Shown piece after piece: positions 23,762 to 36,973 of a stretch of DNA of 37,061 nt. Where the stretch lies: positions 1-37,061 of the forward strand of contig JACZYW010000004.1 in assembly GCA_022570885.1 (NCBI GenBank), written 5' to 3'. Source of the DNA: Chloroflexota bacterium. Lineage in GTDB: Bacteria; Chloroflexota; Dehalococcoidia; DSTF01; RBG-16-68-14. Both the position numbers and the translations under genes were made by a program. Numbering within the stretch: the first letter of the stretch is position 1; each line of letters starts with the position of its first letter. The notes under the pieces are model-generated. The model did no database searches. It had not been told where the DNA came from and saw nothing but the letters and a program-made list of their open reading frames with translations.

Positions 23762-25258
23762 GTGAGTTGGCCACGATTTATACGTGATCGACGAGCGATC
23801 CTCCTTACGGCGCTGGCGGTGGCGCTGGCTGTCTGTTTCGGGCAGATCGCCACTGCCCAGGAGACGGCTAGCATCTCCATCGACCAAGTGATCGTCCAGG
23901 AGCAGGACGGTGGCGAAATCACCGTGCTCGTGTCGGCAGTTGACGATGGCAGGCCCATCCTGGGGCTAACTGGGTTCGAGGTGTTTGTCGATGGCCGCGC
24001 TGTTCAACTGGAGTCCGTGAAGCCGGTTATCGATGCGGAAGTCGGCGTCGCTGTCTTGGTGCTCATCGATGTCAGTGAGAGCATGGTTGGCGAGCCTCTG
24101 GCCCAAGCTCGCCGGGCTGCCACGCTATTCGTCGAAGGACTTGAGAGCAAGGACAGCGCCGCCATTGTTCCGTTTGGCAACGAGGCGCCTCAAGAGGCGC
24201 AGTTCACCACCGACCGTGAAGCGTTGCTAGCTGAGATCGATTCGCTTGAGGCGGAGGGTAGGACGGCCCTCTATGCTTCATTCGTGAGCGCCCTGGAAAT
24301 TGTGAACGGGGCGCCGCTTCCTAGACGCGCGTTAATCCTGCTCACAGACGGCAAGGACTCGGGAGAAAACATCATCAACACGCGGGAGGATGCGCTGCGT
24401 GCAGCGGAAACGTCCAGCTTGCCTATCTTCGCCATCGGCCTGGGCGTGAACGCCGACCTGGACTTCCTGCGGACACTGGTTCAGGATCGGGAAGGTGGAT
24501 TCTACTATGCTCCTGCGCCCGCGGACGTTCTCGATATTTTCGCTGCGATCGGGGCGACGCTGCGTGGGCAGTACTCGCTCACACTACGACTGCCGCCCTC
24601 CGAACGAACGACGCGGGAACTGCTTGTCCGCCTCGAACTTCCGGAAACGACACTAAGCGCCCAGACGACCTTCGCAGTTCCCGATGCCCTCATCGTCATA
24701 GGAGACAACACCAGCACAGGAGACGGCAGCGCTATAGGAGACGACAGCGCCACAGGAGTCGACATCGCCATAGGAGACGACAGCGGCTTCCCGACGCTTT
24801 TGGCGGCCGGCCTGGGTGCGAGCGGGATCGTGATCGCCATCGCCGTGGTCGGCATACTTCGGCGGCGTTCACGAGTCGCGGCCCCCGGCGGCCAGAGAGG
24901 GGAGATCGATGTGCCGCCTCGTCCTGCTCGCCGCGCTCAGCAAACCGCTGCGGTTGTGGGCAGCCTGAAAGTGGTGCAAGGTCCCAATACCGGCGCCAGC
25001 ATCGAGCTGGGCGACGGAGCTGTGGAGATCGGGTCGAGCGACACCTGCGGCCTAACGCTCGATGAAGCGGGCGGCACGGTCAGGGACATCCACGCTAGAG
25101 TGTGGCTCCAGGGCGACCGGCTCATGCTTCACCACCTTGCCAGGCAAGGCCAAACGCTTGTTGGTGACAAAGCGATTGAGTGGGCCACGCTGGACTCCCA
25201 AGATATCCTCCAGATCGGCCCGCACGTGATCATCTTTACCATCGACAGTTCCCCATAA
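23762..25258 (+). CDS. membrane vWA-FHA domain protein
   Basis: A 498-aa protein. A signal peptide or anchor (about residues 10-32) precedes a von Willebrand A domain (about 95-270). The full MIDAS is present: 'DVSES' (Asp103, Ser105, Ser107), Thr168, and Asp196 in 'LLTDGKD'. A Gly-Asp-Ser/Thr-rich repeat linker (314-342) follows, then a membrane segment ('LLAAGLGASGIVIAIAVVGIL', about 346-366) and an FHA-like domain (401-495). The vWA part would face outside and the FHA part inside. The FHA core reads 'IGSSDTC' where the usual Arg is Ser, and the conserved Ser before 'HAR' is lost, so phosphothreonine binding is doubtful. The start is GTG after 'GAAGGGG'. It probably serves pilus assembly, adhesion or sensing next to the Tad genes. 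Confidence 0.87.
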   Translation: MSWPRFIRDRRAILLTALAVALAVCFGQIATAQETASISIDQVIVQEQDGGEITVLVSAVDDGRPILGLTGFEVFVDGRAVQLESVKPVIDAEVGVAVLVLIDVSESMVGEPLAQARRAATLFVEGLESKDSAAIVPFGNEAPQEAQFTTDREALLAEIDSLEAEGRTALYASFVSALEIVNGAPLPRRALILLTDGKDSGENIINTREDALRAAETSSLPIFAIGLGVNADLDFLRTLVQDREGGFYYAPAPADVLDIFAAIGATLRGQYSLTLRLPPSERTTRELLVRLELPETTLSAQTTFAVPDALIVIGDNTSTGDGSAIGDDSATGVDIAIGDDSGFPTLLAAGLGASGIVIAIAVVGILRRRSRVAAPGGQRGEIDVPPRPARRAQQTAAVVGSLKVVQGPNTGASIELGDGAVEIGSSDTCGLTLDEAGGTVRDIHARVWLQGDRLMLHHLARQGQTLVGDKAIEWATLDSQDILQIGPHVIIFTIDSSP

Positions 25259-25269
25259 CCCCGATTTAG

Positions 25270-25303
25270 CCTAACCGAAGCGTAGCTGTACCTAACCGAA
25301 GCG
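25270..25303 (+). repeat. perfect 13-bp direct repeat, 21-bp period
   Basis: CCTAACCGAAGCG occurs at 25270-25282 and again, unchanged, at 25291-25303. The 21-bp period is two helical turns, so both copies face the same side of the DNA, as expected for a tandem-bound dimeric regulator. It lies just upstream of the conserved 52-bp element and the TATAAT promoter. Confidence 0.6.
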
Positions 25304-25308
25304 CCTAG

Positions 25309-25360
25309 CGCATTAGGGCAGATACGCCGCTCTGTAATAGTTGACGTAATCAGCTGTTTA
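25309..25360 (+). promoter_or_regulatory. conserved 52-bp upstream element, copy 1
   Basis: This block matches 28029-28080 at 46 of 52 positions. It includes 'GGCAGATACGCC', 'CTCTGTAA', 'CGTAATC' and 'GCTGTTTA'. The sub-sites CTGTAAT and CTGTTTA are 22 bp apart, and GTAAT recurs at 12 bp, a quasi-tandem layout like OmpR/PhoB-family binding sites. It ends one base before a TATAAT. Copy 1 precedes the first atypical OmpR-type regulator; copy 2 precedes the pilin gene. Confidence 0.6.
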
Positions 25361-25367
25361 CTATAAT
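25341..25367 (+). promoter_or_regulatory. promoter TTGACG-15-TATAAT within and after the 52-bp element
   Basis: A perfect -10 (TATAAT, 25362-25367) follows a TTGACG. The 15-bp spacer is shorter than the usual 17, which suggests activator dependence. It would transcribe the atypical regulator. The leader then has 'TTGGAGG' and a minimal ATG-ACG-TAG at 25400, whose meaning is unclear. Confidence 0.5.
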
Positions 25368-25478: not shown

Positions 25479-26219
25479 GTGTTCGAGAACAGTGTTCGAG
25501 ACATTGGCCGCGAGCCAGGAACCTTTTTGTTGCTGCTGTATACCGATGCAGGTCAGGCGGCAACGTTCGTTCGCTGGTTGTCCGAAGGCGGATCTAACGA
25601 GGTGGTGACGTGCCCCTTGTCGCGGCCTATCAGCAGTCTAATTGAGGAGGTTCAGCCGGATCTCATCCTCCTGGAGCCGCCGTCTAACAAAGAGCAGCTG
25701 CTGGAAGCTTGCGACCGTGTCCGGCAGGCAACCGAACGGCCTCTCGTCGTTTTGTCAAGTCTTGCCGAAGAGCTCGCCGTCACTCAGGCCTTGTCAGCCG
25801 GCGCCGATGAATACCTCGTGCTGCCTATTCGCGAACATGAGCTAGTTGCCCGTATCGGGGCTTTAGCACGTCGGATGAGCCGCGCCGGCGCCGTCGCGGC
25901 ACCGGCAGAGTTTGGTGGTATGACTCTTTCAGCGGATGAACAGTCTGCAGAGTTCTGCGGCCGTACATTCCTCCTCTCGCCTATCGAGTTCCGCTTGCTG
26001 GCGTGTCTCGTTTCCGCGCAGGGCAAGGTGGTAACGCATGACTACCTGATGTCTCACGTTTGGGGCGCAGAGTATGTCAATTCACGTCACTATTTGCACC
26101 TCTATATCCGCTACCTGCGGGAAAAGCTGGAGACCGATCGGGCGAACCCACGCCTCATCCTCAGCGAGTGGGGGATCGGCTATCGATTCCAGCCCGTGCT
26201 TGAAACTGAACCTTCGTAG
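25479..26219 (+). CDS. OmpR-type regulator with a phosphoacceptor-less receiver (Asp replaced by Glu)
   Basis: An approximately 246-aa protein. A receiver-like domain (about residues 15-130) is followed by an OmpR/PhoB winged helix (146-236) with 'LSPIEFRLLACLVSAQGKVV', 'HVWG', 'LHLYIRYLREKLE' and 'GIGYRFQP'. In the receiver, the phosphorylated Asp position reads Glu66 ('PDLILLE') and the conserved Lys is Leu115 ('EYLVLP'), so it cannot be activated the usual way; Glu may mimic the phosphorylated state. The acidic pair is reduced to 'YTD'. The start is uncertain: GTG 25479 is chosen, but TTG 25434 would add 15 unlikely-looking residues. It is probably a DNA-binding regulator of the Tad locus, since its promoter element recurs before flp. 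Confidence 0.85.
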   Translation: MFENSVRDIGREPGTFLLLLYTDAGQAATFVRWLSEGGSNEVVTCPLSRPISSLIEEVQPDLILLEPPSNKEQLLEACDRVRQATERPLVVLSSLAEELAVTQALSAGADEYLVLPIREHELVARIGALARRMSRAGAVAAPAEFGGMTLSADEQSAEFCGRTFLLSPIEFRLLACLVSAQGKVVTHDYLMSHVWGAEYVNSRHYLHLYIRYLREKLETDRANPRLILSEWGIGYRFQPVLETEPS

Positions 26220-26239
26220 ACCGCGGTTCTCCGCCGCGT

Positions 26240-26258
26240 TTAGGGCTCTGCTCCCTAA
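26240..26258 (+). terminator. possible weak terminator hairpin after regulator 1
   Basis: TTAGGG and CCCTAA enclose a 7-nt loop, followed by 'GTAATTTCTT'. The stem is short and the T-tract interrupted, so termination would be partial at best. Confidence 0.35.
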
Positions 26259-26288
26259 GTAATTTCTTAACCCTCTCACAGCATTGGC

Positions 26289-26312
26289 CTAGAGCATTCA
26301 TAGAAAATTCAT
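26289..26312 (+). promoter_or_regulatory. CTAGAG(A/C)ATTCAT motif copy 2 with an 11-bp ATTCAT direct repeat
   Basis: CTAGAGCATTCAT (26289-26301) matches the motif at 23638-23650. A second ATTCAT at 26307-26312 gives an 11-bp period with the first, the spacing typical of OmpR/PhoB-family tandem sites. It lies about 70-80 bp before the second regulator gene. Confidence 0.45.
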
Positions 26313-26382
26313 GCCTGGTTCTTGGCGTATTGTCGCGGCGTTAGCGCTAGGCTTGCCCCAAGATTCAAACTAGGGGGCTGGG

Positions 26383-27120
26383 GTGGGTAACCATATTCTC
26401 CTGTTTGATGATTGTGGAGAGGGCGCTGACGGCGTTATCGATCGTCTCGCCCAGTCCGGATTTATCATCAAGCATGTCCGTAACCTAGATGAAGCGGCCC
26501 GCCGATTCCACGATGCTTCGCAGACCCCCATCGTTGCTCTGTTGACGTCTGCTGAGGCTGTCGAGCGGTGCGCGGCCCTGAGATGGATCTGCACATCGCC
26601 GATGATCGTCCTCCTTCGTGACAGTGACGATGACCCTCTCGTCCGCGATGAGACCGTTGCTGCGTGTCTCGAAGCTGGGGCGGATACGGTGATGTCTGCT
26701 GCGCTCGGCCGGCGCGAACTGGCGGCGAGAATCACCGCCGCTATCGGTACCCGGCGGCGAATAGAACCACGACAGCATCGCCGCGAAAGCTTCCCGCCGG
26801 GGGACTCGGTGACCTATCGATTCGGAGACCTCGTGATCGACCCGGCAAGGCATGCGGTCATGGTCTCTGGACAGCACATCGCATTGACTCCCACCGAGTT
26901 TCGACTGCTCGTCGCGCTCGCTCGGCGCTCCGGGAGGACGGCGCGCCACGAAGAATTGGTTGCTGAGGTTTGGGGCGCGCCGGGTAGTCACCGTCACAAG
27001 ATGCTTCGCTTGTATATCAGCTACTTGCGTAGAAAGCTAGAAGCGGGACGAAATCGTCCCCCGCTGGTCGTGAGCCAGCGGGGGATCGGCTACAGGCTCG
27101 CTAACAACGTGCAGTCATGA
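26383..27120 (+). CDS. OmpR-type regulator with a degenerate receiver domain
   Basis: A 245-aa protein. The receiver-like domain (about residues 4-120) keeps an acidic pair ('LFDD', residues 7-10), but Thr55 stands at the phosphoacceptor position ('PIVALLT') and no Lys follows 'GADTVMS'. The C-terminal winged helix (144-239) is well kept: 'LTPTEFRLLVALARRSGRTA', 'EVWG', 'LRLYISYLRRKLE' and 'RGIGYRLA'. It should bind DNA without classical phosphorylation control. The start is GTG after 'TAGGGGGCTGG'. It lies between regulator 1 and a kinase-like gene, 20 bp before the latter, and so probably shares a transcript with it. It is a paralog of regulator 1 in layout. Confidence 0.85.
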   Translation: MGNHILLFDDCGEGADGVIDRLAQSGFIIKHVRNLDEAARRFHDASQTPIVALLTSAEAVERCAALRWICTSPMIVLLRDSDDDPLVRDETVAACLEAGADTVMSAALGRRELAARITAAIGTRRRIEPRQHRRESFPPGDSVTYRFGDLVIDPARHAVMVSGQHIALTPTEFRLLVALARRSGRTARHEELVAEVWGAPGSHRHKMLRLYISYLRRKLEAGRNRPPLVVSQRGIGYRLANNVQS

Positions 27121-27140
27121 ATAGCGAAAGGACGTGCTAA

Positions 27141-28028
27141 GTGGTTGTAAAAGCGCGGATGGATAAGCCCAGGACGCAAGGTCACATTGCTGTCTATGCG
27201 AAGGATGCGCGAAGACGGCAGGCGCTCGCAAGGACCCTAAGCGCGGCTGGCCATTCACACCACGAAGCGGCGACGCCGGCCGAGCTGCACCGGTTGCTGG
27301 ATCACCAGCGGTTTGACGTAGCGGCGTTGATCGTTCGTGACAGCGAGGAGGCGGAGGCGCTCTCTGCCGCGCTCGACGGCGTGCAGCTACCGCTCCATAC
27401 CATCCTGATCGGCAGCGCCAGCGCTCTGCCGCTTACGCTGAAGCGACGCCGTGGCAGCACCTTTCGTTTTGTTCCCGGGCAGCTCACGGCGCGTGAGATT
27501 ACCCACCTCGTCGACAGCAGCATCAGCGCCGGGACGTGGGATGAGGCCGCCACGGACAACGGCAACGGCTCGCATCTAGAGCAGGTTGAGCTGGAGGAGA
27601 TCATCGAACGCGCTGCCGCAACGGTATACAGCGAGGCGAAGCGGAAGCGACAGCGCTTCAACACCGTGGTCTCTGGAGCCCATGGGTACGTGCTCGGCAA
27701 CCCCGCCAAGCTGCGGCACATATTCAGCGCGCTGCTCCGGCTTTTCGTGTCGCTGGCGCCAACCGGCGTCACGGTCTCCATCGACGCCCACGCAGCCCAC
27801 GACAAGTGGGTGATCGATGTCAAGACGTCGGACGGCAAGGCCAGCCGCCGGCCAGTGGCGGACATTGCCGCGGAGCTTCGGGAAGAGCGCGCCGCGTTGA
27901 CGGCGGTAGCGCGTGAGATACGAGAGCAAGGGGGAATGCTCTGGGTAGAGCTAGCAGGGCCGGCGGCCCTGGCGTTGTGCCTGACGTTGCCCCTTCCAGC
28001 GGAAGCGTTAGAGAGCGCGTCCGCCTGA
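27141..28028 (+). CDS. receiver-like / GHKL ATPase-like protein, degenerate
   Basis: A 295-aa protein. The first 130 residues have receiver-like alternation ('HIAVYAKDARRRQALARTLSAAG') but no phosphoacceptor Asp. Residues about 148-290 resemble the ATP-binding domain of a histidine kinase: 'VELEEIIERAAATVYSEAKRKRQRF', 'LGNPAKLRHIFSALLRL' at the N-box position with its key Asn missing, and 'IREQGGMLWVELAG' then 'LCLTLPLP' like the end of HATPase_c. No H-box and no membrane segment are present. It is probably a non-catalytic partner of the two upstream regulators rather than a working kinase. The start is GTG; 'GAAAGGACG' lies upstream. Confidence 0.75.
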   Translation: MVVKARMDKPRTQGHIAVYAKDARRRQALARTLSAAGHSHHEAATPAELHRLLDHQRFDVAALIVRDSEEAEALSAALDGVQLPLHTILIGSASALPLTLKRRRGSTFRFVPGQLTAREITHLVDSSISAGTWDEAATDNGNGSHLEQVELEEIIERAAATVYSEAKRKRQRFNTVVSGAHGYVLGNPAKLRHIFSALLRLFVSLAPTGVTVSIDAHAAHDKWVIDVKTSDGKASRRPVADIAAELREERAALTAVAREIREQGGMLWVELAGPAALALCLTLPLPAEALESASA

Positions 28029-28080
28029 CGCATCATGGCAGATACGCCCCTCTGTAACAGTTGGCGTAATCGGCTGTTTA
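28029..28080 (+). promoter_or_regulatory. conserved 52-bp upstream element, copy 2
   Basis: 46 of 52 bases match 25309-25360; differences are scattered single changes. It starts at the stop codon of the preceding gene, 162 bp before the pilin ATG. The TATAAT found after copy 1 is not conserved here, so the shared part is probably a protein-binding site rather than just a core promoter. The remaining leader (28081-28220) shows purine-rich tracts but no gene. Confidence 0.6.
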
Positions 28081-28220
28081 GTGAGTGAAGGGAGGTGGGG
28101 GCCAGGAAAAATACAACAAGCAGTTCCCATGACGGTACGGCAAGGAGAGCAACCGTCCAGAGGGGCATAGGCAAGGCAGGGACTGGCCTGAACAAACCGA
28201 ACAGACAGAACAAGAACATC

Positions 28221-28238
28221 ATTATTAGGAGGAATAAT
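28221..28238 (+). promoter_or_regulatory. pilin ribosome binding site in the loop of an A/T inverted repeat
   Basis: ATTATT and AATAAT flank AGGAGG exactly, three bases before the pilin ATG. The RNA could fold with the strong Shine-Dalgarno sequence in the loop. The all-A/U stem is weak, so it may present the site rather than hide it. Confidence 0.5.
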
Positions 28239-28241
28239 CAC

Positions 28242-28487
28242 ATGGCATTCATGAACACCGCGCTGTTGCGCATGATGACCGCGGTCTCCGGCCTGCGTGC
28301 TCGGTTCTCCGAGGAGCGGGGCCAGGACCTGCTGGAGTACGCCCTGCTGGGCGGCCTGATCGCCGCGGCACTCGTGGCGGCCGGAGTCCTGATCGCCTAC
28401 ACCGGTGGGGTCACGGCGATGGCCGACGGCATCGCCAACTGCATCGACTTCGACAACAGCGTTGGCTCGGAGTGTAATCCTTTCTAA
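28242..28487 (+). CDS. flp: Flp-type pilin precursor
   Basis: An 81-aa pilin, the subunit of the Tad/Flp pilus. A basic leader ends in 'ERG'; the prepilin cleavage site is Gly27|Gln28, giving mature 'QDLLEYALLGGLIAAALVAAG' with Glu at +5 and Tyr at +6, the Flp hallmark. The hydrophobic helix is residues 30-53. The tail contains Cys67 and Cys78 ('NCIDF', 'ECNPF'), which could form a disulfide loop, not typical of short Flp pilins. The ORF track starts at 28095, but ATG 28242 has AGGAGG upstream and gives the right pilin size. A strong hairpin follows the gene, consistent with high expression. Confidence 0.92.
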   Translation: MAFMNTALLRMMTAVSGLRARFSEERGQDLLEYALLGGLIAAALVAAGVLIAYTGGVTAMADGIANCIDFDNSVGSECNPF

Positions 28488-30235: not shown

Positions 30236-31063
30236 ATGGCACAAGCAGTAGCAGGTTCAAGGCCGGAGAGTAGAAACCGTACGATGATCGTCGCGGCGGT
30301 CGTCTTTGCGGCCATAGCGGCCCTGCTCCTCTTCGTCGCGCTGCAGAACAGCGGCGGAGGTGGGGACAGCGCGAGCGCGCCCGTGGTCACGGCTGACGTG
30401 GTCGTCGCCACTGGAAACGTCAGCGCCAACACGATACTGACGGCCGAAATGATCGAGGTGAAGTCGATACCTGTCGACCAAGCGCTGACGGGTGGCTACA
30501 CCAGCATCGATACGGCGGTTGGTCTACCCGTTCGCTATCCGTTGCAGGCGGGCGAGCAGCTAACGACGTTTAAAGTTGGCATCGAGGCGATCGCGGATGA
30601 GAAGGATCTGGCGCTCGTCCTCGATAACGGAATGCGCGCCTTCGCCGTGTCTGCGAGCGAGGTCACTGCCGTTGGTGGCCTGCTGCTTCCCAAGAACTAT
30701 GTTGATGTGATCGCGGTCTTCCAGAACGAAGAGGGCGACATTGTGAGCGTCGTCACCGTCCTCGAAAACATACAGGTGCTGGGAGTAGCGCAGGAGGCGC
30801 TTGAGCCTGTGCCCGCGAACGTAGGCGATTCCGACGCGAGCGGAAGCGAGACCGGCATCCTCGGCCAACGGTCGGATGGGGTGGAGAGGCAGCCGCGGGC
30901 GCGCTCTGTCACGCTGGCGGTCACGCCCGATCAGGCGCAGCTGCTTGCAGGGCTGCAGACGGATGACATCAACCTCTGGCTCTCATTGCGACCTTTTGAT
31001 GACGACGCAAGCGGCCCGCAAGGCGCCCTAAGCGCAGAGCAGTTCCAGGCCATATCGCAATAA
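30236..31063 (+). CDS. cpaB: Flp pilus assembly protein CpaB (RcpC)
   Basis: A 275-aa protein. One N-terminal membrane segment ('MIVAAVVFAAIAALLLFVAL') is followed by a low-complexity Gly/Ser stretch and a SAF-like domain: 'VVVATGNVSANTILTAEMIEVKSIP', 'VGLPVRYPLQAGEQL'. The RcpC part has 'MRAFAVSASEVTAVGGLLLPKNYVDVIAVF' and the C-terminal 'SVTLAVTPDQAQLLAGLQ'. CpaB is a periplasmic/outer-face component of the Tad machine, often interacting with the secretin or wall. 'CAGGAGGAGAG' precedes the ATG, 17 bp after tadG. Confidence 0.92.
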   Translation: MAQAVAGSRPESRNRTMIVAAVVFAAIAALLLFVALQNSGGGGDSASAPVVTADVVVATGNVSANTILTAEMIEVKSIPVDQALTGGYTSIDTAVGLPVRYPLQAGEQLTTFKVGIEAIADEKDLALVLDNGMRAFAVSASEVTAVGGLLLPKNYVDVIAVFQNEEGDIVSVVTVLENIQVLGVAQEALEPVPANVGDSDASGSETGILGQRSDGVERQPRARSVTLAVTPDQAQLLAGLQTDDINLWLSLRPFDDDASGPQGALSAEQFQAISQ

Positions 31064-31084
31064 GGCGTAGGAGGAAGACGACAC

Positions 31085-32347
31085 ATGGCGAAGTTACCAG
31101 GGATCTTCATCGTTGACCCAGACCCAGACGCCCGGTACCAGATTCAGCAACTGATACCGCAAACGGGCTTTGCCGTCAGCGGCCAGTCCGGTTTAGGTAC
31201 CGAGGCAGTCGCGCAAGTGACCGAGGCCGGGCCGGACATCATCCTCTGCGGCCTCAAGGAGCCGGTGGCTCGCGTGGTGCAGACCATCGAGTCCATCGCC
31301 TACGCGCTGCCGGAGACTCCGATCATCGTCTACGCCGATACGGCCGATCTAGACATCATCCGCAAGGCGATGCTCGCCGGCGCGCGCAATTTCCTTGAGA
31401 GCCCGCTACAGCCTGACCAGCTCAAGCGCGCCTTCTCCGCGACGCTAGAGGCTGAAGAACGGCGCCATCTACGGCAGGCTAACAACTCCATCCTTGGGCC
31501 GCATGGCGCGATCATCACGGTCTTTGGGGCAAAGGGCGGCATCGGCAAGACGACCCTCGCAGCGAACCTCGCCGTGGCGTTCGTTCGCCAGGCTGGCCAA
31601 TCCTGCGTGCTGGTCGACGCCGACGACTCGTTCGGTGACGCGGCCGCCACGCTCGCCGTCACGCCGGAGCAGACGCTTATAGACGGGTTGCGGGAGCTCG
31701 ACAACGAAGGCGGCGACGTTAGGAGCTGCCTAAGCTACCACAACAGCGGCCTGGCCATCGCTTCGGCGCCGGAAGACCCGCTCCAATGGCGCCAGGTCAA
31801 AGCCAACCGGTTCCAGGAGATGCTGCATCAATTGGCGCGCCAGTTCGATGTTGTCCTTGTCGATACTGCCGGAACGCTTGGCGAAGTGACTCAGGCTGCC
31901 CTGGAGGCGGCGTCGCTCGTGCTATGGCTCACCACACCCGATTACGCCAGCGTTCGCGATTCGCTCCAGGCTCTTCGGGCCGTTCGAAGTCTTGGCCTTG
32001 CCGATGACCGCATCCGGTTCGTGCTCAATGTCACGTCACCGGAGTTCGCCGTGAACCCGGCTACTATCGAGGACGCGATCGGCATGCCGCTCTTCTGGAC
32101 GATTTCCTATGACCGGCTGCTCCGGCAGAGCGGGCTGTTGGGGCAGGCGATCGTCGATGCCCATCCCAACAGCGCGGCCGCGCGGCAGTTCTCAGATCTT
32201 TCGCGGGTGCTAAGTGGGTTGCCGCTGGTACCGCGCAAGGCTGGCCTGTTGAGCCGGGTCTTCTCCAGCCGCAATGGGAAGGCGGAAAAACCGGAGAAGC
32301 TTGAGGAGACTAAAGGCATTGAAGTTGGAGAAGAGGCGTCAGCATGA
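31085..32347 (+). CDS. tadZ: TadZ/CpaE-type localisation ATPase
   Basis: A 420-aa protein. The N-terminal atypical receiver (about residues 5-125) has no phosphoacceptor Asp ('PDIILCG'), as usual for TadZ. A ParA/MinD ATPase domain follows with the deviant Walker A 'KGGIGKTT' (150-157), 'CVLVDADDSFGDAAATLAV' and 'FDVVLVDTAGTLGEVTQAAL'. TadZ places the Tad machine at a site in the cell, often a pole. The C-terminal 40 residues are charged (Lys/Glu-rich). 'TAGGAGGAAG' precedes the ATG. It overlaps tadA by 4 bp (ATGA). Confidence 0.92.
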   Translation: MAKLPGIFIVDPDPDARYQIQQLIPQTGFAVSGQSGLGTEAVAQVTEAGPDIILCGLKEPVARVVQTIESIAYALPETPIIVYADTADLDIIRKAMLAGARNFLESPLQPDQLKRAFSATLEAEERRHLRQANNSILGPHGAIITVFGAKGGIGKTTLAANLAVAFVRQAGQSCVLVDADDSFGDAAATLAVTPEQTLIDGLRELDNEGGDVRSCLSYHNSGLAIASAPEDPLQWRQVKANRFQEMLHQLARQFDVVLVDTAGTLGEVTQAALEAASLVLWLTTPDYASVRDSLQALRAVRSLGLADDRIRFVLNVTSPEFAVNPATIEDAIGMPLFWTISYDRLLRQSGLLGQAIVDAHPNSAAARQFSDLSRVLSGLPLVPRKAGLLSRVFSSRNGKAEKPEKLEETKGIEVGEEASA

Positions 32348-33681
32348 CCGAAATATTTACCGCCAGCCAAGTTGAAACTCCGCCAATGGTGGGCGAAGAT
32401 GCTTCGCTCAACGTGGAGCAGGCGGCCTTGGTGCACCGGGTGCATCAACGGCTTATTCAGGACATTGACATGGTGGCGTTGGAACAGCAGCCCCCCGAAG
32501 ACGCTCGCAAGGCCATCGAAGCGACTGTGCGCGCTCTCATAAGCGAGATGGCGAGCGGTCTGTACGGGGAGACGAAAGAGGCGTCTGTGAAGGCGGTCCT
32601 GGACGAAGTAGTCGGACTCGGCCCCATTCAGTACCTAGTCGACGACCAGACGGTATCTGAGATCATGATTAACGCCACTGATGAGGTGTACTTCGAGCGA
32701 GACGGCATCATCTACCTCTCGGCCGCCCGCTTCCGCGACAACGAGCATATCATGCGGATCGTCGAGCGCATCATCGCTCCGCTCGGTCGCCGCGTCGATG
32801 AATCGTCCCCATACGTGGACGCCCGGCTGCCGGACGGCTCGCGGGTGAACGTGGTGATTCCACCCCTCGTCCCGCGCGGACCGACGGTCACCATCCGTAA
32901 GTTCCGCCCAGACATGTATACAGCAGACGACCTGATAGCGAACGGAACGTTTACGGAATCGATCGGGAGCTTCCTACGCGCATGCGTTCGGTTGCGCCTC
33001 AACATGGTACTCTCCGGCGGTACTGGCACCGGCAAGACCACGCTACTGAACGCCATTTCAACGTACCTACCGAGCAGCGAGCGCATCATCACCATCGAGG
33101 ATCCCATAGAGCTGAAGCTGCAGCAGAAGCACGTTATCTCGATGGAGGCCCGCCCGCCGAATATCGAGGGCCACAATCAAGTGACGCAGCGCGATCTGGT
33201 TCGCAATGCGCTTCGCATGCGGCCGGACCGCATCATCGTCGGTGAGGTGCGCGGGCCAGAGGCCTTCGACATGATGCAGGCGATGAACACCGGCCATGAA
33301 GGCTCGATGACGACGGTGCACGCGAACACCACACGAGACGCTCTCGCTCGCATCGAAAACATGATCCTGATGGCGGCGCTGGACCTCCCGATCCGCGCCA
33401 TCCGCGAGCAGATGGCGTCCGCGCTCCACCTAGTCATACAGCTCACGCGCTCTAGCGATGGCCGTCGCCGGGTGACCAACATTGCGGAGATTACCGGCAT
33501 GGAGAGCGACATCGTCACGATGCAAGACCTGTTTCGTTTCGAGCAGACAGGCGTTGATGATCAAGGGCGCGTGCAGGGCGACCTAGTGCCGACGGGCATC
33601 AGGCCTACGTTCGCCGAGTTGTTTGAGCGGTCGGGCGTAGATTTCGACTGGGGTGCGGTAGCAAGGGCGAACTGGGGGTAG
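32344..33681 (+). CDS. tadA: Tad secretion ATPase (TadA/CpaF)
   Basis: A 445-aa type II/IV secretion ATPase that powers pilus extension and perhaps retraction. An N-terminal all-alpha and beta domain ('GLGPIQYLVDDQTVSEIMIN') precedes the RecA core. Walker A is 'GGTGTGKTT' (225-233), the Asp box 'ITIEDPIELKLQ', Walker B 'RIIVGEVRGPEAFDM' and the His box 'TGHEGSMTTVHANTT'. All catalytic motifs are intact and length is normal for CpaF. It overlaps tadZ by 4 bp, and tadB starts 4 bp after its stop. Confidence 0.95.
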   Translation: MTEIFTASQVETPPMVGEDASLNVEQAALVHRVHQRLIQDIDMVALEQQPPEDARKAIEATVRALISEMASGLYGETKEASVKAVLDEVVGLGPIQYLVDDQTVSEIMINATDEVYFERDGIIYLSAARFRDNEHIMRIVERIIAPLGRRVDESSPYVDARLPDGSRVNVVIPPLVPRGPTVTIRKFRPDMYTADDLIANGTFTESIGSFLRACVRLRLNMVLSGGTGTGKTTLLNAISTYLPSSERIITIEDPIELKLQQKHVISMEARPPNIEGHNQVTQRDLVRNALRMRPDRIIVGEVRGPEAFDMMQAMNTGHEGSMTTVHANTTRDALARIENMILMAALDLPIRAIREQMASALHLVIQLTRSSDGRRRVTNIAEITGMESDIVTMQDLFRFEQTGVDDQGRVQGDLVPTGIRPTFAELFERSGVDFDWGAVARANWG

Positions 33682-33685
33682 TACT

Positions 33686-34660
33686 ATGTTGGCATTTGCT
33701 GCAAGTGCGTTTGTATTCCTGGCGATAGTTACCGGGGCCATCGCCGCGTTTGGTCCGAGCCGCTTTGGACGAAGTAAGTCCGAGGAGCGAATCCTCAGTC
33801 TGCAGCCAAAGCAAGGCCCAACGGGAGATAGCTCGATTGGTCCGTCGTTTAAGCGGTCGCACTCATCCATCCCGACGCTTCGCTCACTGCTGAGCGACAG
33901 CGAATGGGCAGAATCGACAGCTCACGACCTGCAGCAGGCGAACGTCCACCTTCGCGTTGGCGAATACCTACTGATACGGTTCATATTGAGTGCGGTTCTC
34001 TTCTTTGTCGTTGTACTGGTGTTCCGGTTTCACCCACTAGGCATAGTGCTTGGGCTGGCCGCCGCGGGAGCCGGATATATGGTGGCCCCCTTCTATCTGC
34101 AGATGTTGCGACGCAGGCGACTGGCCAAGATCGAGAATCAGCTCGTGGAATTCTTGCCAATGCTCGCCTCGTCGCTCCGCTCCGGATTTGCGTTTCAGCA
34201 AGGCGTTGAGCTTGCAGCTCAGCAACTCGATCCGCCGTTGGCTGATGAGCTCATGATCTTACTGAACGATACGAACTTAGGCGCGACGATGGAGGATGCG
34301 CTGCTGCAGATGGGAGAGCGTGTTGGCAGCATTGACTTCGACATGATGATCACAGCGATCCTCGTCCAGCGCAATACCGGTGGCAACTTGGCCGAGGTTC
34401 TTGAGCGGGCCGCGGAGACGCTGCGGGAGCGGGAGCGCGTTCGCGCCGATCTCCAAACGCTGACTGCTTCGGCGCGACTCACCGGCCTCATCTTGTCGGT
34501 ATATCCTGCGCTAGTCGGTTTGCTGTTGTTGCTCATCATGCCTTCTCTCTGGGGTGTGATGTTTACGGAGACGATCGGACGGATCTTCCTCGGCGTTGCT
34601 CTTGGCCTTCAAGGGATCGGTTTCTTGGTCATGCGCCGCGTCATGAGATTCGAGTTTTAG
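33686..34660 (+). CDS. tadB: Tad inner-membrane platform protein TadB
   Basis: A 324-aa GspF/T2SSF-domain membrane protein. It has one N-terminal segment, a pair near residues 95-137 ('LLIRFILSAVLFFVVVLVF'), a cytoplasmic T2SSF domain and a C-terminal segment pair. The T2SSF domain includes 'LVEFLPMLASSLRSGFAFQQGVELAAQQL' and 'ALLQMGERVGSIDFDMMITAI', then 'QRNTGGNLAEVLERAAETLRER'. With TadC it forms the platform on which TadA acts. 'GGGGGTAGT' lies just before the ATG. A linker of about 40 polar residues separates the first membrane segments, longer than many relatives. Confidence 0.92.
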   Translation: MLAFAASAFVFLAIVTGAIAAFGPSRFGRSKSEERILSLQPKQGPTGDSSIGPSFKRSHSSIPTLRSLLSDSEWAESTAHDLQQANVHLRVGEYLLIRFILSAVLFFVVVLVFRFHPLGIVLGLAAAGAGYMVAPFYLQMLRRRRLAKIENQLVEFLPMLASSLRSGFAFQQGVELAAQQLDPPLADELMILLNDTNLGATMEDALLQMGERVGSIDFDMMITAILVQRNTGGNLAEVLERAAETLRERERVRADLQTLTASARLTGLILSVYPALVGLLLLLIMPSLWGVMFTETIGRIFLGVALGLQGIGFLVMRRVMRFEF

Positions 34661-34670
34661 GAGGAAGCGG

Positions 34671-35588
34671 ATGTTACTCGATCTTAGTATCGCAATCTCT
34701 GCCTTCCTCGCGTTCGTCCTCTTCGGGCTCTGGGCGCTCCAGGGCGTCGGTGGCCCGGTGGAGGCTCGGATTCGGGCGTTGGGCCAGGGCCGGACAGGCC
34801 GGGACGGTCAGTCCAGTGAATCGGTGACGTTTCAAGCTCGTATTGTAGCGCCACTCATCGAATCAATCGGCCGCCGAGTAGCGGCAGCGCTACCGGGGGC
34901 CTTCCTGAAGCGGACGGAGCACCAGCTGGTGCTTGCGGGCCAGCCGATGAGTGCAACGACGTTCTACGCCCTCATGTTTTCGATTGGCGCCCTGCTAGCC
35001 GCAGTGTATGTGCTGATGATTGTTACTGTCTACAACGGCCTACCGCCTGTCTTGGCGCTGGTGCCTGGCGTAATCTTCGGCTTCATAGGCATGTACATGG
35101 TGAGCTTCTGGCTATCTTCTCAGGCGCGTTCGAGACGGAAGGCGATGGCGCGGGGGCTGCCCGATTCCATGGACCTGATGACGATCTGTGTGGAAGCCGG
35201 CCTCGGCCTGGACGCCGCCTTCCACCGGGTCTCGGAGAAACAGCGGGGGCCGTTGGTAGACGAGATCCGCCAAATGTTGCGAGAGATTGGCCTTGGGAAA
35301 TCGCGACGCGACGGCTTGCTGGATCTTGCCGACCGCACAGATCTTGAGGAAGTTCGCACCTTCGCCAATGCGGTCATCCAGGCGGAACAGCTAGGCACCA
35401 GCCTTGCCCAAGTCCTGCGGGTTCAGTCTGAGCGCTTGCGCGTTCGGCGCAGACAGCTGGCGGAACAAGAAGCGAGAAAAGCGCCGGTAAAGATGGTGTT
35501 CCCCCTGGTGTTCTGCCTTATGCCATCGCTCTTCATCTTCATCTTAGGGCCGATCGTGGTTAATCTGATCGGTTTTCTGTCCGGCTAA
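34671..35588 (+). CDS. tadC: Tad inner-membrane platform protein TadC
   Basis: A 305-aa T2SSF-domain protein related to TadB. The signature is 'LPDSMDLMTICVEAGLGLDAAFHRVSE', then 'ANAVIQAEQLGTSLAQVLRVQSERLRVRRRQLAEQEARKAPVKMVFPLVFCLMPSLFIFILGPI'. This C-terminal block with the basic stretch and Pro-containing membrane segment is typical of TadC. 'TAGGAGGAAGCGG' precedes the ATG. It overlaps the next gene by one base (TAATG), so that gene is coupled. Confidence 0.92.
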   Translation: MLLDLSIAISAFLAFVLFGLWALQGVGGPVEARIRALGQGRTGRDGQSSESVTFQARIVAPLIESIGRRVAAALPGAFLKRTEHQLVLAGQPMSATTFYALMFSIGALLAAVYVLMIVTVYNGLPPVLALVPGVIFGFIGMYMVSFWLSSQARSRRKAMARGLPDSMDLMTICVEAGLGLDAAFHRVSEKQRGPLVDEIRQMLREIGLGKSRRDGLLDLADRTDLEEVRTFANAVIQAEQLGTSLAQVLRVQSERLRVRRRQLAEQEARKAPVKMVFPLVFCLMPSLFIFILGPIVVNLIGFLSG

Positions 35589-36973
35589 TGAAAGAGCTTG
35601 AGGTCATGGAAACTGAGCGTGTCGCGGAGGACTACTTTGAGGTGCTCGGCTTGCTGCCGACTGCGCCCCATGACCTAGTCGTCGAGGTCTACTGGCATTC
35701 GGCGCATCGGCTCCAAGGAGCAGCCAGCACGGATCCATCTGCGCAAGCCATGCTGGTGCGACTCAACCAAGCGTACGCTTGGTTGACAAACCCAGGCGAC
35801 GACCAGCGCGCCAACCTGCTGCAACATCCGTCGCTTGAGAAGCACTACGAGACTGTTACGACCAAGCGACGGGGCTGGCTGGCGCGTCTTATGAGGGGAG
35901 CGCCGAAACCTGTCCAGGCTTCGCCCAACCACTGGGAATTGCTGGACCTCTTACCATCCGCCTCGCCCGAGCTAGTCAAACTGGCGTACGACTTCTGGCG
36001 CCGCCGGCTGCGCGGCAGCCTGGGCGAAGGCGCCGATCCGGCTCTAGCGAGGCTTTCCGAGGCCTATCAGGCGATCGTAGCGGCGGCAAGCGCTTCACCC
36101 GATCAAGCCGATGCGGGCCTTGAGTCGCTCGACAGCTCGAACGAGGTTCAGCAGCAAGCAGCGAATGAGACCGAACCACCAGCGCTTGCTGACCCGCAGA
36201 CCGACGTGAGCACAGACTCGGAAGAGGTCGAACCACCAGCGCTTGCTGACCCGCAGACCGACGAGAGCATAGACTCGGAAGAGGTCGAAGCGCTGGAAGA
36301 ACAGCCCGCTCGCAGCCCCCGGGCCTCACGAGCCTGGCTGGCCATTGCCTCCACATCCAGAGCAGCCGGTCAGCGGACAAGGCGTTTGCTGGCCGGCGGC
36401 CGGGAGCGGATCGGGAAGTGGGCTTCAGACCCATTTCACGAGTACGACCGCCAGGCGCAGCTCGAACTTGAGCTTCAAATACCGGACATCGGCGATGAGC
36501 GCTTGCGCTCGCTGGCTAGCGTGGTCGAAACTGAGCGCCCCCGCATCGACGAGAACCGTTCTCAGGCCCACCTCGCGCTCCCGTCGAGCACATTCGAAGG
36601 CGACACAGAGGGGCCACTCGAAGGAGTTGCCGAGCGTGATCAGGCAAGTCCTGTAGCCAGGCTTGTCGCGGAGAACGGTATGAGTTGGGCGATAGGCGAG
36701 GAGGCGCTGAGTATTGGCAGCGATCCCACATGCGACATCACGGCCGGTGACGGAACGGCTGACGCGGAGCATGTGACGGCTCGCATCTGGGCCCGAGGCA
36801 AGCAGGTTGTGCTCCACGCATTGGCGCCAGAACCGTCAGTTCTGGTCAATGGGCAGCGCGTGACCTGGGCGATTCTGGAGGATGGCGATGCAGTACAGGT
36901 ATGTGGTATGATGCTTCGATTCGAGGTGTACATAACGGGGGAAGGACGGACAGCAGATGTCGCAGGTGGATAG
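35588..36973 (+). CDS. double J-like / FHA domain protein downstream of tadC
   Basis: A 461-aa soluble protein. Two DnaJ-like helical domains lie at about residues 15-78 ('DYFEVLGLLPTAP', 'RLNQAYAWLTNP') and 115-166 ('HWELLDLLPSASPELVKLAYDFWRRR', 'RLSEAYQAI'). Neither keeps His-Pro-Asp, so Hsp70 stimulation is unlikely. A 19-residue acidic repeat ('EPPALADPQTD') occurs twice at 196-233. The C terminus (about 356-448) is an FHA-like domain with 'LSIGSDPTCDI', where Ser replaces the usual Arg and the 'SxxH' Ser is lost. It is coupled to tadC by TAATG. It may be a scaffold for the Tad platform or for partner proteins; no function is established. Confidence 0.8.
   Translation: MKELEVMETERVAEDYFEVLGLLPTAPHDLVVEVYWHSAHRLQGAASTDPSAQAMLVRLNQAYAWLTNPGDDQRANLLQHPSLEKHYETVTTKRRGWLARLMRGAPKPVQASPNHWELLDLLPSASPELVKLAYDFWRRRLRGSLGEGADPALARLSEAYQAIVAAASASPDQADAGLESLDSSNEVQQQAANETEPPALADPQTDVSTDSEEVEPPALADPQTDESIDSEEVEALEEQPARSPRASRAWLAIASTSRAAGQRTRRLLAGGRERIGKWASDPFHEYDRQAQLELELQIPDIGDERLRSLASVVETERPRIDENRSQAHLALPSSTFEGDTEGPLEGVAERDQASPVARLVAENGMSWAIGEEALSIGSDPTCDITAGDGTADAEHVTARIWARGKQVVLHALAPEPSVLVNGQRVTWAILEDGDAVQVCGMMLRFEVYITGEGRTADVAGG
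36173..36286 (+). repeat. 57-bp tandem repeat inside the J/FHA gene
   Basis: Two in-frame 57-bp units, starting at 36173 and 36230, encode the acidic 19-residue repeat. They differ at only a few positions, so they look recent and could expand or contract without breaking the frame. Confidence 0.75.

Follow-up and report, generated by a model that had tools for sequence, protein, structure and literature searches.

We analysed a 37,061-nucleotide stretch of DNA (hereafter the window), which is one contig of the 2.34-Mb draft genome (G000) of a Chloroflexota bacterium. It contains three adjacent genes, here called P1, P2 and P3, which lie on the same strand, 5′ of flp and the Tad genes. All three open reading frames were recovered, and the features of the region are as follows.

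23762..25258, + strand: gene for a VWA-FHA protein, conserved next to the trio in both families, f1 and f61
25302..25360, + strand: 59-nt repeat, copy 1, 5′ of P1
25479..26219, + strand: P1, OmpR-type regulator with a pseudo-receiver and an intact winged helix (residues 163-237)
26238..26260, + strand: terminator-like stem-loop 3′ of P1; chance alone predicts about as many in the region
26296..26325, + strand: conserved element ATTCATAGAAAATTCATGCCTGGTTCTTGG, a tandem direct repeat with an 11-bp period and a candidate OmpR-type operator for P2-P3
26383..27120, + strand: P2, OmpR-type regulator with a pseudo-receiver and an intact winged helix (residues 163-239)
27141..28028, + strand: P3, a receiver-like N half without the Asp and a C half like the CA domain of histidine kinases
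28022..28080, + strand: 59-nt repeat, copy 2, at the end of P3 and 5′ of flp
28242..28487, + strand: flp pilin gene, the first gene of the tad cluster (ATG at 28242); relatives have a homologue in the same position
30236..35588, + strand: linked Tad machinery (CpaB, CpaE, CpaF, TadB, TadC)

The window's family, f1, comprises G000, G001, G002, G003 and G005; f61 is another family within its class (G201, G220, G271 and G283). P2 and P3 are 20 nt apart in the window, and the two genes overlap in G201 and G283. No membrane segments were seen in the sequences of P1, P2 and P3. P1 and P2 are two of the five recognisable OmpR-type winged-helix genes of the window's genome, which has eight recognisable HATPase_c domains elsewhere. 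Two other genes of the cluster may be mentioned here. CpaE (31085-32347) contains a further Asp-less receiver within 7 kb (D11 kept, Gly56 at the Asp site, Ser106 at the Lys site), and after TadC, at the cluster's far end, a second FHA-type gene (35588-36973), whose product is of low complexity in its central part and FHA-like at its end, is conserved in G005.

At the positions equivalent to CheY D12/D13/D57/T87/K109, P1 carries Y21/T22/E66/S93/L115 and P2 carries D9/D10/T55/L78/A106; at the Tyr position of the receiver they have Tyr112 and Val103, respectively. Compared with a canonical phosphorylatable receiver (Asp57, Lys109 and the acidic pair of CheY), P1 has none of the required residues and P2 retains the acidic pair only. 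The Ser/Tyr coupling pair (Ser93, Tyr112) is kept in P1. As a control, both Asp and Lys are present in 53 of the 63 OmpR relatives picked up by the same query. The receiver of P1 matches Pfam with an E-value of 1.6e-5, under the Pfam cut-off, and is recognised by hhalign at 99.6%. That of P2 has no Pfam match; the profile of its N-domain aligns with canonical receivers with a probability of 99% (hhalign, E 5e-19), and its AF2 model is a complete (beta-alpha)5 receiver with Thr55 immediately after beta3. Since this fold is complete and Thr55 lies directly past beta3, no Asp pocket is hidden elsewhere in P2. Both proteins correspond to what is called a pseudo-receiver, a domain with the receiver fold from which the phospho-acceptor Asp or further key residues are missing.

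The winged helices (PF00486) score 76.4 bits in P1 (E 1.8e-21) and 69.5 bits in P2 (E 2.7e-19), against a cut-off of 26.2. In P1, the acidic and basic residues D110, E121, R125 and R132 of the alpha4-beta5-alpha5 face are invariant. A retained Ser/Tyr pair together with residues of this face is what is expected of a protein that dimerises in the manner of PhoB.

The C half of P3 has the CA fold of histidine kinases according to its AF2 model (pLDDT about 80-91 over most of it), and Foldseek returned the VanS CA domain (TM 0.83) and also DivL. The N-box Asn is replaced by Leu201 and the G1 Asp by Thr229, the G2 box is deleted, and the H-box is absent from every f1 P3. P3 has the CA fold but neither the H-box His in a DHp domain nor the N, G1 and G2 boxes that define a histidine kinase. 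The N half resembles a receiver weakly (hhalign 54%; AF2 pLDDT mostly <55, in a model whose alignment included CA sequences and left out close P3 homologues, which limits it for this half). It also gives a weak match to KaiA_N (PF21714; E 0.0024, 18.4 bits against a cut-off of 27), which falls to 13 bits in the P3 of G001 and is not listed in that of G005. As this match is below the cut-off and absent in some relatives, we rejected P3 as a KaiA-like clock protein. No recognisable sensor domain was found in P3, and a sequence search of solved structures gave nothing meaningful. At E 1e-18, a 400-genome sample of the phylum gave no match to P3 outside the window's genome, and a class-wide search found clear homologues in f1 and f61 only.

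A preliminary description of the locus had proposed three adjacent signalling proteins without phosphorelay residues, and this holds for P1 (E66, L115), P2 (T55, A106) and P3 (no H-box, L201, G boxes gone). It had named an intact Asp pocket elsewhere in the fold as the observation that would speak against this, and neither the alignment with canonical receivers nor the AF2 model of P2 revealed one. The absence of Asp and Lys from both receivers is confirmed, with the correction that P2 keeps D9/D10 and P1 its Ser/Tyr pair. For P3, a GHKL-like CA fold without the N-box Asn and H-box was found as described, while the receiver-like N half was matched weakly. The description of well-conserved output winged helices agrees with the PF00486 scores. 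In published surveys, about 2% of REC-OmpR proteins are without the Asp (PMC4395418) and 0.9% of HisKA domains are without the His (PMC12632262); at such rates, three phosphate-blind genes in a row are not due to chance. The residue loss across the trio is one evolutionary event or a series of them.

In the three other f1 genera represented by G001, G005 and G002, the order P1, P2, P3, flp, TadE, TadG, CpaB, CpaE, CpaF, TadB, TadC is kept. The VWA-FHA gene precedes P1 in this order; it was not seen in G002, whose sequence partly reads N. For the close pair G001/G005, dN/dS is 0.32 for P1, 0.47 for P2 and 0.36 for P3, with 0.19-0.35 for the linked tad genes. Judged by this pair, P1-P3 are under purifying selection. 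The winged helix of P2 gives 0.66 in the same single pair, and constraint on it may be relaxed. In G003, P3 is gone and P2 stops after its receiver, with loss of the winged helix, and P1 and tad are retained. This indicates that the full trio is not indispensable and that decay is still ongoing in places. The truncated P2 homologue of G003 (L071:9549-9900) consists of the receiver only and has Asn in place of the Asp.

The Asp site itself varies. Among the five f1 proteins it reads T/A/A/Q/N in P2 and E/E/E/D/L in P1, where the Asp belongs to G002. P1 has tad-linked orthologues in four other f1 and four f61 genomes, and there are two paralogues. Among P1 relatives (n = 11), Lys and the acidic pair are never present (0/11 each) and Asp is found in 3/11. 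Because the site drifts in this way, Glu66 is one state of several. The prominence that the preliminary description gave to Glu66, as if it were a special device, is reduced, and a conserved phosphomimetic role for it is rejected as a general rule: orthologues, close relatives among them, carry Asp, Leu or Ala. The two P1 paralogues are found in G001, away from tad (L069:6819-7580; L070, G001:C106), and their Asp sites carry Glu and Ala, respectively; the latter paralogue is followed by a 759-aa gene with a sigma-factor-like start.

Less decayed trios are found in f61. They adjoin the VWA-FHA gene, here located after P3, in three of the four genomes, and flp is within reach in G201 and G271, with further tad genes in G201 (the contigs of G220, G271 and G283 end early). 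The f61 P3 proteins carry an H-box (HDLR) in 3/4 cases, the His being Phe in G271, and their HATPase_c domain is recognisable (E 7e-11 in G201); at their N-box, Asn has already given way to His, Tyr or Phe. At the phosphorylation site, P1 has Asp in G201, Glu in G220, Ala in G271 and Asp in G283, and P2 has Asn, Ser, Asp and Asp in the same genomes. Lys or Arg is kept at the Lys position of the f61 P2. The CA halves of P3 from the two families are homologous (hhalign 98%, E 2.6e-13). In our tree, P1 of f1 and f61 form one clade (support 100/95), and the P2 proteins group together with weaker support. Given this clade and the H-box, HATPase_c domain and occasional Asp of the f61 trios, the ancestral module most likely comprised one kinase and two regulators, encoded at or near a tad locus. 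Lys and the acidic pair of P1, missing from all P1, were most likely the first to go; the Lys of P2, the H-box and the Asp sites would have followed, lineage by lineage.

Regulators of the OmpR/PhoB family typically recognise direct repeats arranged in tandem with a spacing of about 11 bp. Across eight genomes, the P1-P2 gaps contain 30 direct repeats of period 11 where 5.0 are expected (z 6.9, 0/300 shuffles), an excess to be read with an effective sample smaller than eight, as 3/8 of the gap sequences are homologous. The other periods tested in these gaps show no comparable excess. Within the gap, ATTCATAGAAAATTCATGCCTGGTTCTTGG is conserved in three genera while its flanks diverge, and it occurs once per genome; it was not found 5′ of flp in the window's own genome. 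The f61 form of the motif is TTCTAACN4TTC. Its sole exact copy in G201 (2.6 Mb) lies 5′ of flp, and the P1-P2 gap of this genome has a copy with one mismatch; G271 has four exact copies genome-wide, one in the P1-P2 gap and one 5′ of flp. As the motif was derived from the P1-P2 gaps, its presence 5′ of flp is independent of how it was defined.

For the genome of the window, the only such link is the 59-nt repeat 5′ of P1 and of flp. It has just these two copies in this genome, which are 86% identical, and the relatives have none. Copy 1 contains TTGACG (25341-25346), with TATAAT just downstream (25362-25367), which is promoter-like; no -10-like box follows copy 2. The P1 promoter region thus looks as though it had been copied in this lineage and set before flp. 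We rejected it as an ancestral operator since it is present in the window's genome only. Separately, the flp leader (28085-28241) is conserved in three genera. A hairpin in it is kept through a base-pair change (GACGGT..ACCGTC versus GACGGC..GCCGTC), and folding z-scores range from -1.6 to -3.0, which is compatible with a possible structured leader RNA. A known riboswitch was rejected, there being no Rfam match.

We lean clearly towards reading the trio as the remnant of a module of one histidine kinase and two response regulators, which would have lost phosphotransfer, kept its DNA-binding outputs and now control the adjacent Tad locus without Asp or His phosphorylation. This reading builds on the pocket loss, the ancestry shared with the f61 trios, purifying selection, linkage, and OmpR-style 11-bp repeats 5′ of P2 and, in f61, of flp. 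That P1 and P2 are regulators independent of phosphorylation is very likely. The Tad locus is quite likely the target of the trio. The preliminary description had read the trio as a two-component module that became a non-phosphorylated switch, which is well supported by the f61 trios with their H-box His (3/4), HATPase_c domain (E 7e-11) and some Asp. Its further proposal, dedication to the Tad locus, is backed in part, by linkage to tad or VWA-FHA and by putative operator sites 5′ of P2 and, in f61, of flp.

In the mechanism that we propose, P1 would be a constitutively competent dimer by virtue of the acidic Glu66, Ser93, Tyr112 and the kept alpha4-beta5-alpha5 residues, and P2 would act with it, possibly as a heterodimer. 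P1, or perhaps P1-P2 dimers, would bind the operator-like sites unphosphorylated, with feedback on P2-P3 and action on flp. P3 would be a pseudokinase scaffold free of nucleotide, and it would gate P1 or P2 through direct contact. MirA inhibits Rem, and WhiI pairs with BldM (PMC12632262); by analogy with these pairs, and from its close position 3′ of P2, P3 is the obvious candidate for a binding partner that would either hold back P1/P2 or let them act, or would form a complex with them. We put forward its role as a protein-contact gate tentatively.

Alternatively, P1 and P2 could be plain constitutive DNA binders whose output is set by their amount through autoregulation, with P3 a bystander or an inert relic. 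A Glu in place of the Asp can act as a phosphomimic, and constitutive dimerisation and DNA binding are known from many Asp-less regulators (PMC12632262); moreover, operator-like repeats lie within the trio's own P1-P2 gap, and G003 lives without P3. However, a role for P3 is favoured by its retention beside P2 in three other f1 genera, its dN/dS of 0.36 and its invariant core, and other lineages have Leu, Asp or Ala in place of Glu. We consider this alternative unlikely.

A small-molecule sensor, whose ligand would sit at the dimer interface or in the pocket once used for phosphorylation, is less probable again. Ligand sensing by a pseudo-receiver has been reported for JadR1-type regulators. 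The pocket region of P2 is still a folded receiver in the AF2 model, and polar residues are kept (the E/S/Y constellation in P1, the acidic pair in P2), but the would-be pocket residues vary by genus (T/A/A/Q/N in P2, E/E/E/D/L in P1), a variability not usually expected where a ligand site is conserved.

We regard as very improbable that the trio is decaying, without a regulatory role, on its way to loss. The drift of the catalytic sites, the loss of P3 and half of P2 in G003 and the dN/dS of P2, the highest of the cluster, would fit such decay. Against it, reading frames and gene order are intact over four genera (one with sequence gaps), dN/dS is well below 1, the winged helices are strongly conserved and the operator-like intergenic element is conserved amid diverged flanks. 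Finally, that phosphorylation persists by an unusual route (for example through the P1 Asp of G002 or another residue, with another kinase or acetyl phosphate as donor) is scarcely credible: Asp is present in P1 of G002, G201 and G283 and in P2 of G271 and G283, Lys or Arg is kept in f61 P2 and eight HATPase_c domains exist elsewhere in the genome, but Lys and the metal-binding acidic pair are missing from all P1, and both P1 and P2 of the window lack Asp at the site.

Other atypical regulators were found as well. In the window's genome, a GlnR-like OmpR-type regulator whose Asp and Lys sites are occupied by Asn and Tyr (L116, G000:C114:1970-2638) lies directly 5′ of ammonium-transporter-like, PII-like and two glutamine-synthetase-like genes. 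In G173 (L115, G173:C68), two adjacent OmpR-type regulators have degenerate pockets, with Asp/Tyr and Ser/Gln at the Asp/Lys sites; we rejected them as another Tad trio, since they lie beside a sortase-like gene near ftsA/ftsZ-like genes and not tad. Thermoflexus and relatives have a nearby OmpR-type pair in every locus fetched (L010, L012, L013, L014); the second regulator of the pair retains the Lys but has Glu in place of the Asp.

Pseudo-receivers, pseudokinases and the Asp-less CpaE are already known. Like P1 and P2, the Asp-less OmpR/PhoB regulators ChxR, HP1043, RitR and CmrT combine a receiver fold lacking key residues with a winged helix; in this group Glu is the commonest replacement and activity free of phosphorylation is expected (PMC4395418, PMC12632262). 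The window differs from them in having two such regulators side by side with an inactive kinase-derived partner, and in an Asp site that varies between close relatives. CmrRST of Clostridioides difficile likewise unites one histidine kinase and two OmpR-type regulators, one of them atypical, in one operon, but its kinase and one regulator appear canonical (PMC12632262), whereas P1, P2 and P3 are all without the chemistry. DivL and other pseudo-histidine kinases are, like P3, kinase-derived, and are used for protein contact (PMC4211667); unlike DivL, P3 is without any H-box segment, in place of which its N half is receiver-like. CpaE/TadZ shares with P1 and P2 an Asp-less receiver in the same cluster, but it carries a ParA-like ATPase and no DNA-binding domain. 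BldM and WhiI of Streptomyces are also two atypical regulators and work unphosphorylated as homo- or heterodimers (PMC12632262; PMC4125116). In contrast to the window's regulators, they have no linked kinase relic. Their output domain also belongs to a family different from that of P1 and P2.

What is new is a kinase and both its regulators that are all phosphate-blind and Tad-linked, with intermediates alive, for which no description was found in the literature searched; no paper on Chloroflexi, Tad pili and response regulators was found either. We lean, if only slightly, towards seeing here a complete "pseudo-two-component system", in which kinase and both regulators would lack the phosphorelay and still work a Tad-pilus cassette, with living relatives at intermediate stages. 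How pseudo-receivers switch was called a mystery in a 2025 review (PMC12632262). The locus offers every part of the former pathway, a likely operator and target, and relatives that range from partly intact to fully phosphate-blind, so that what replaces phosphorylation is testable here with three small proteins.
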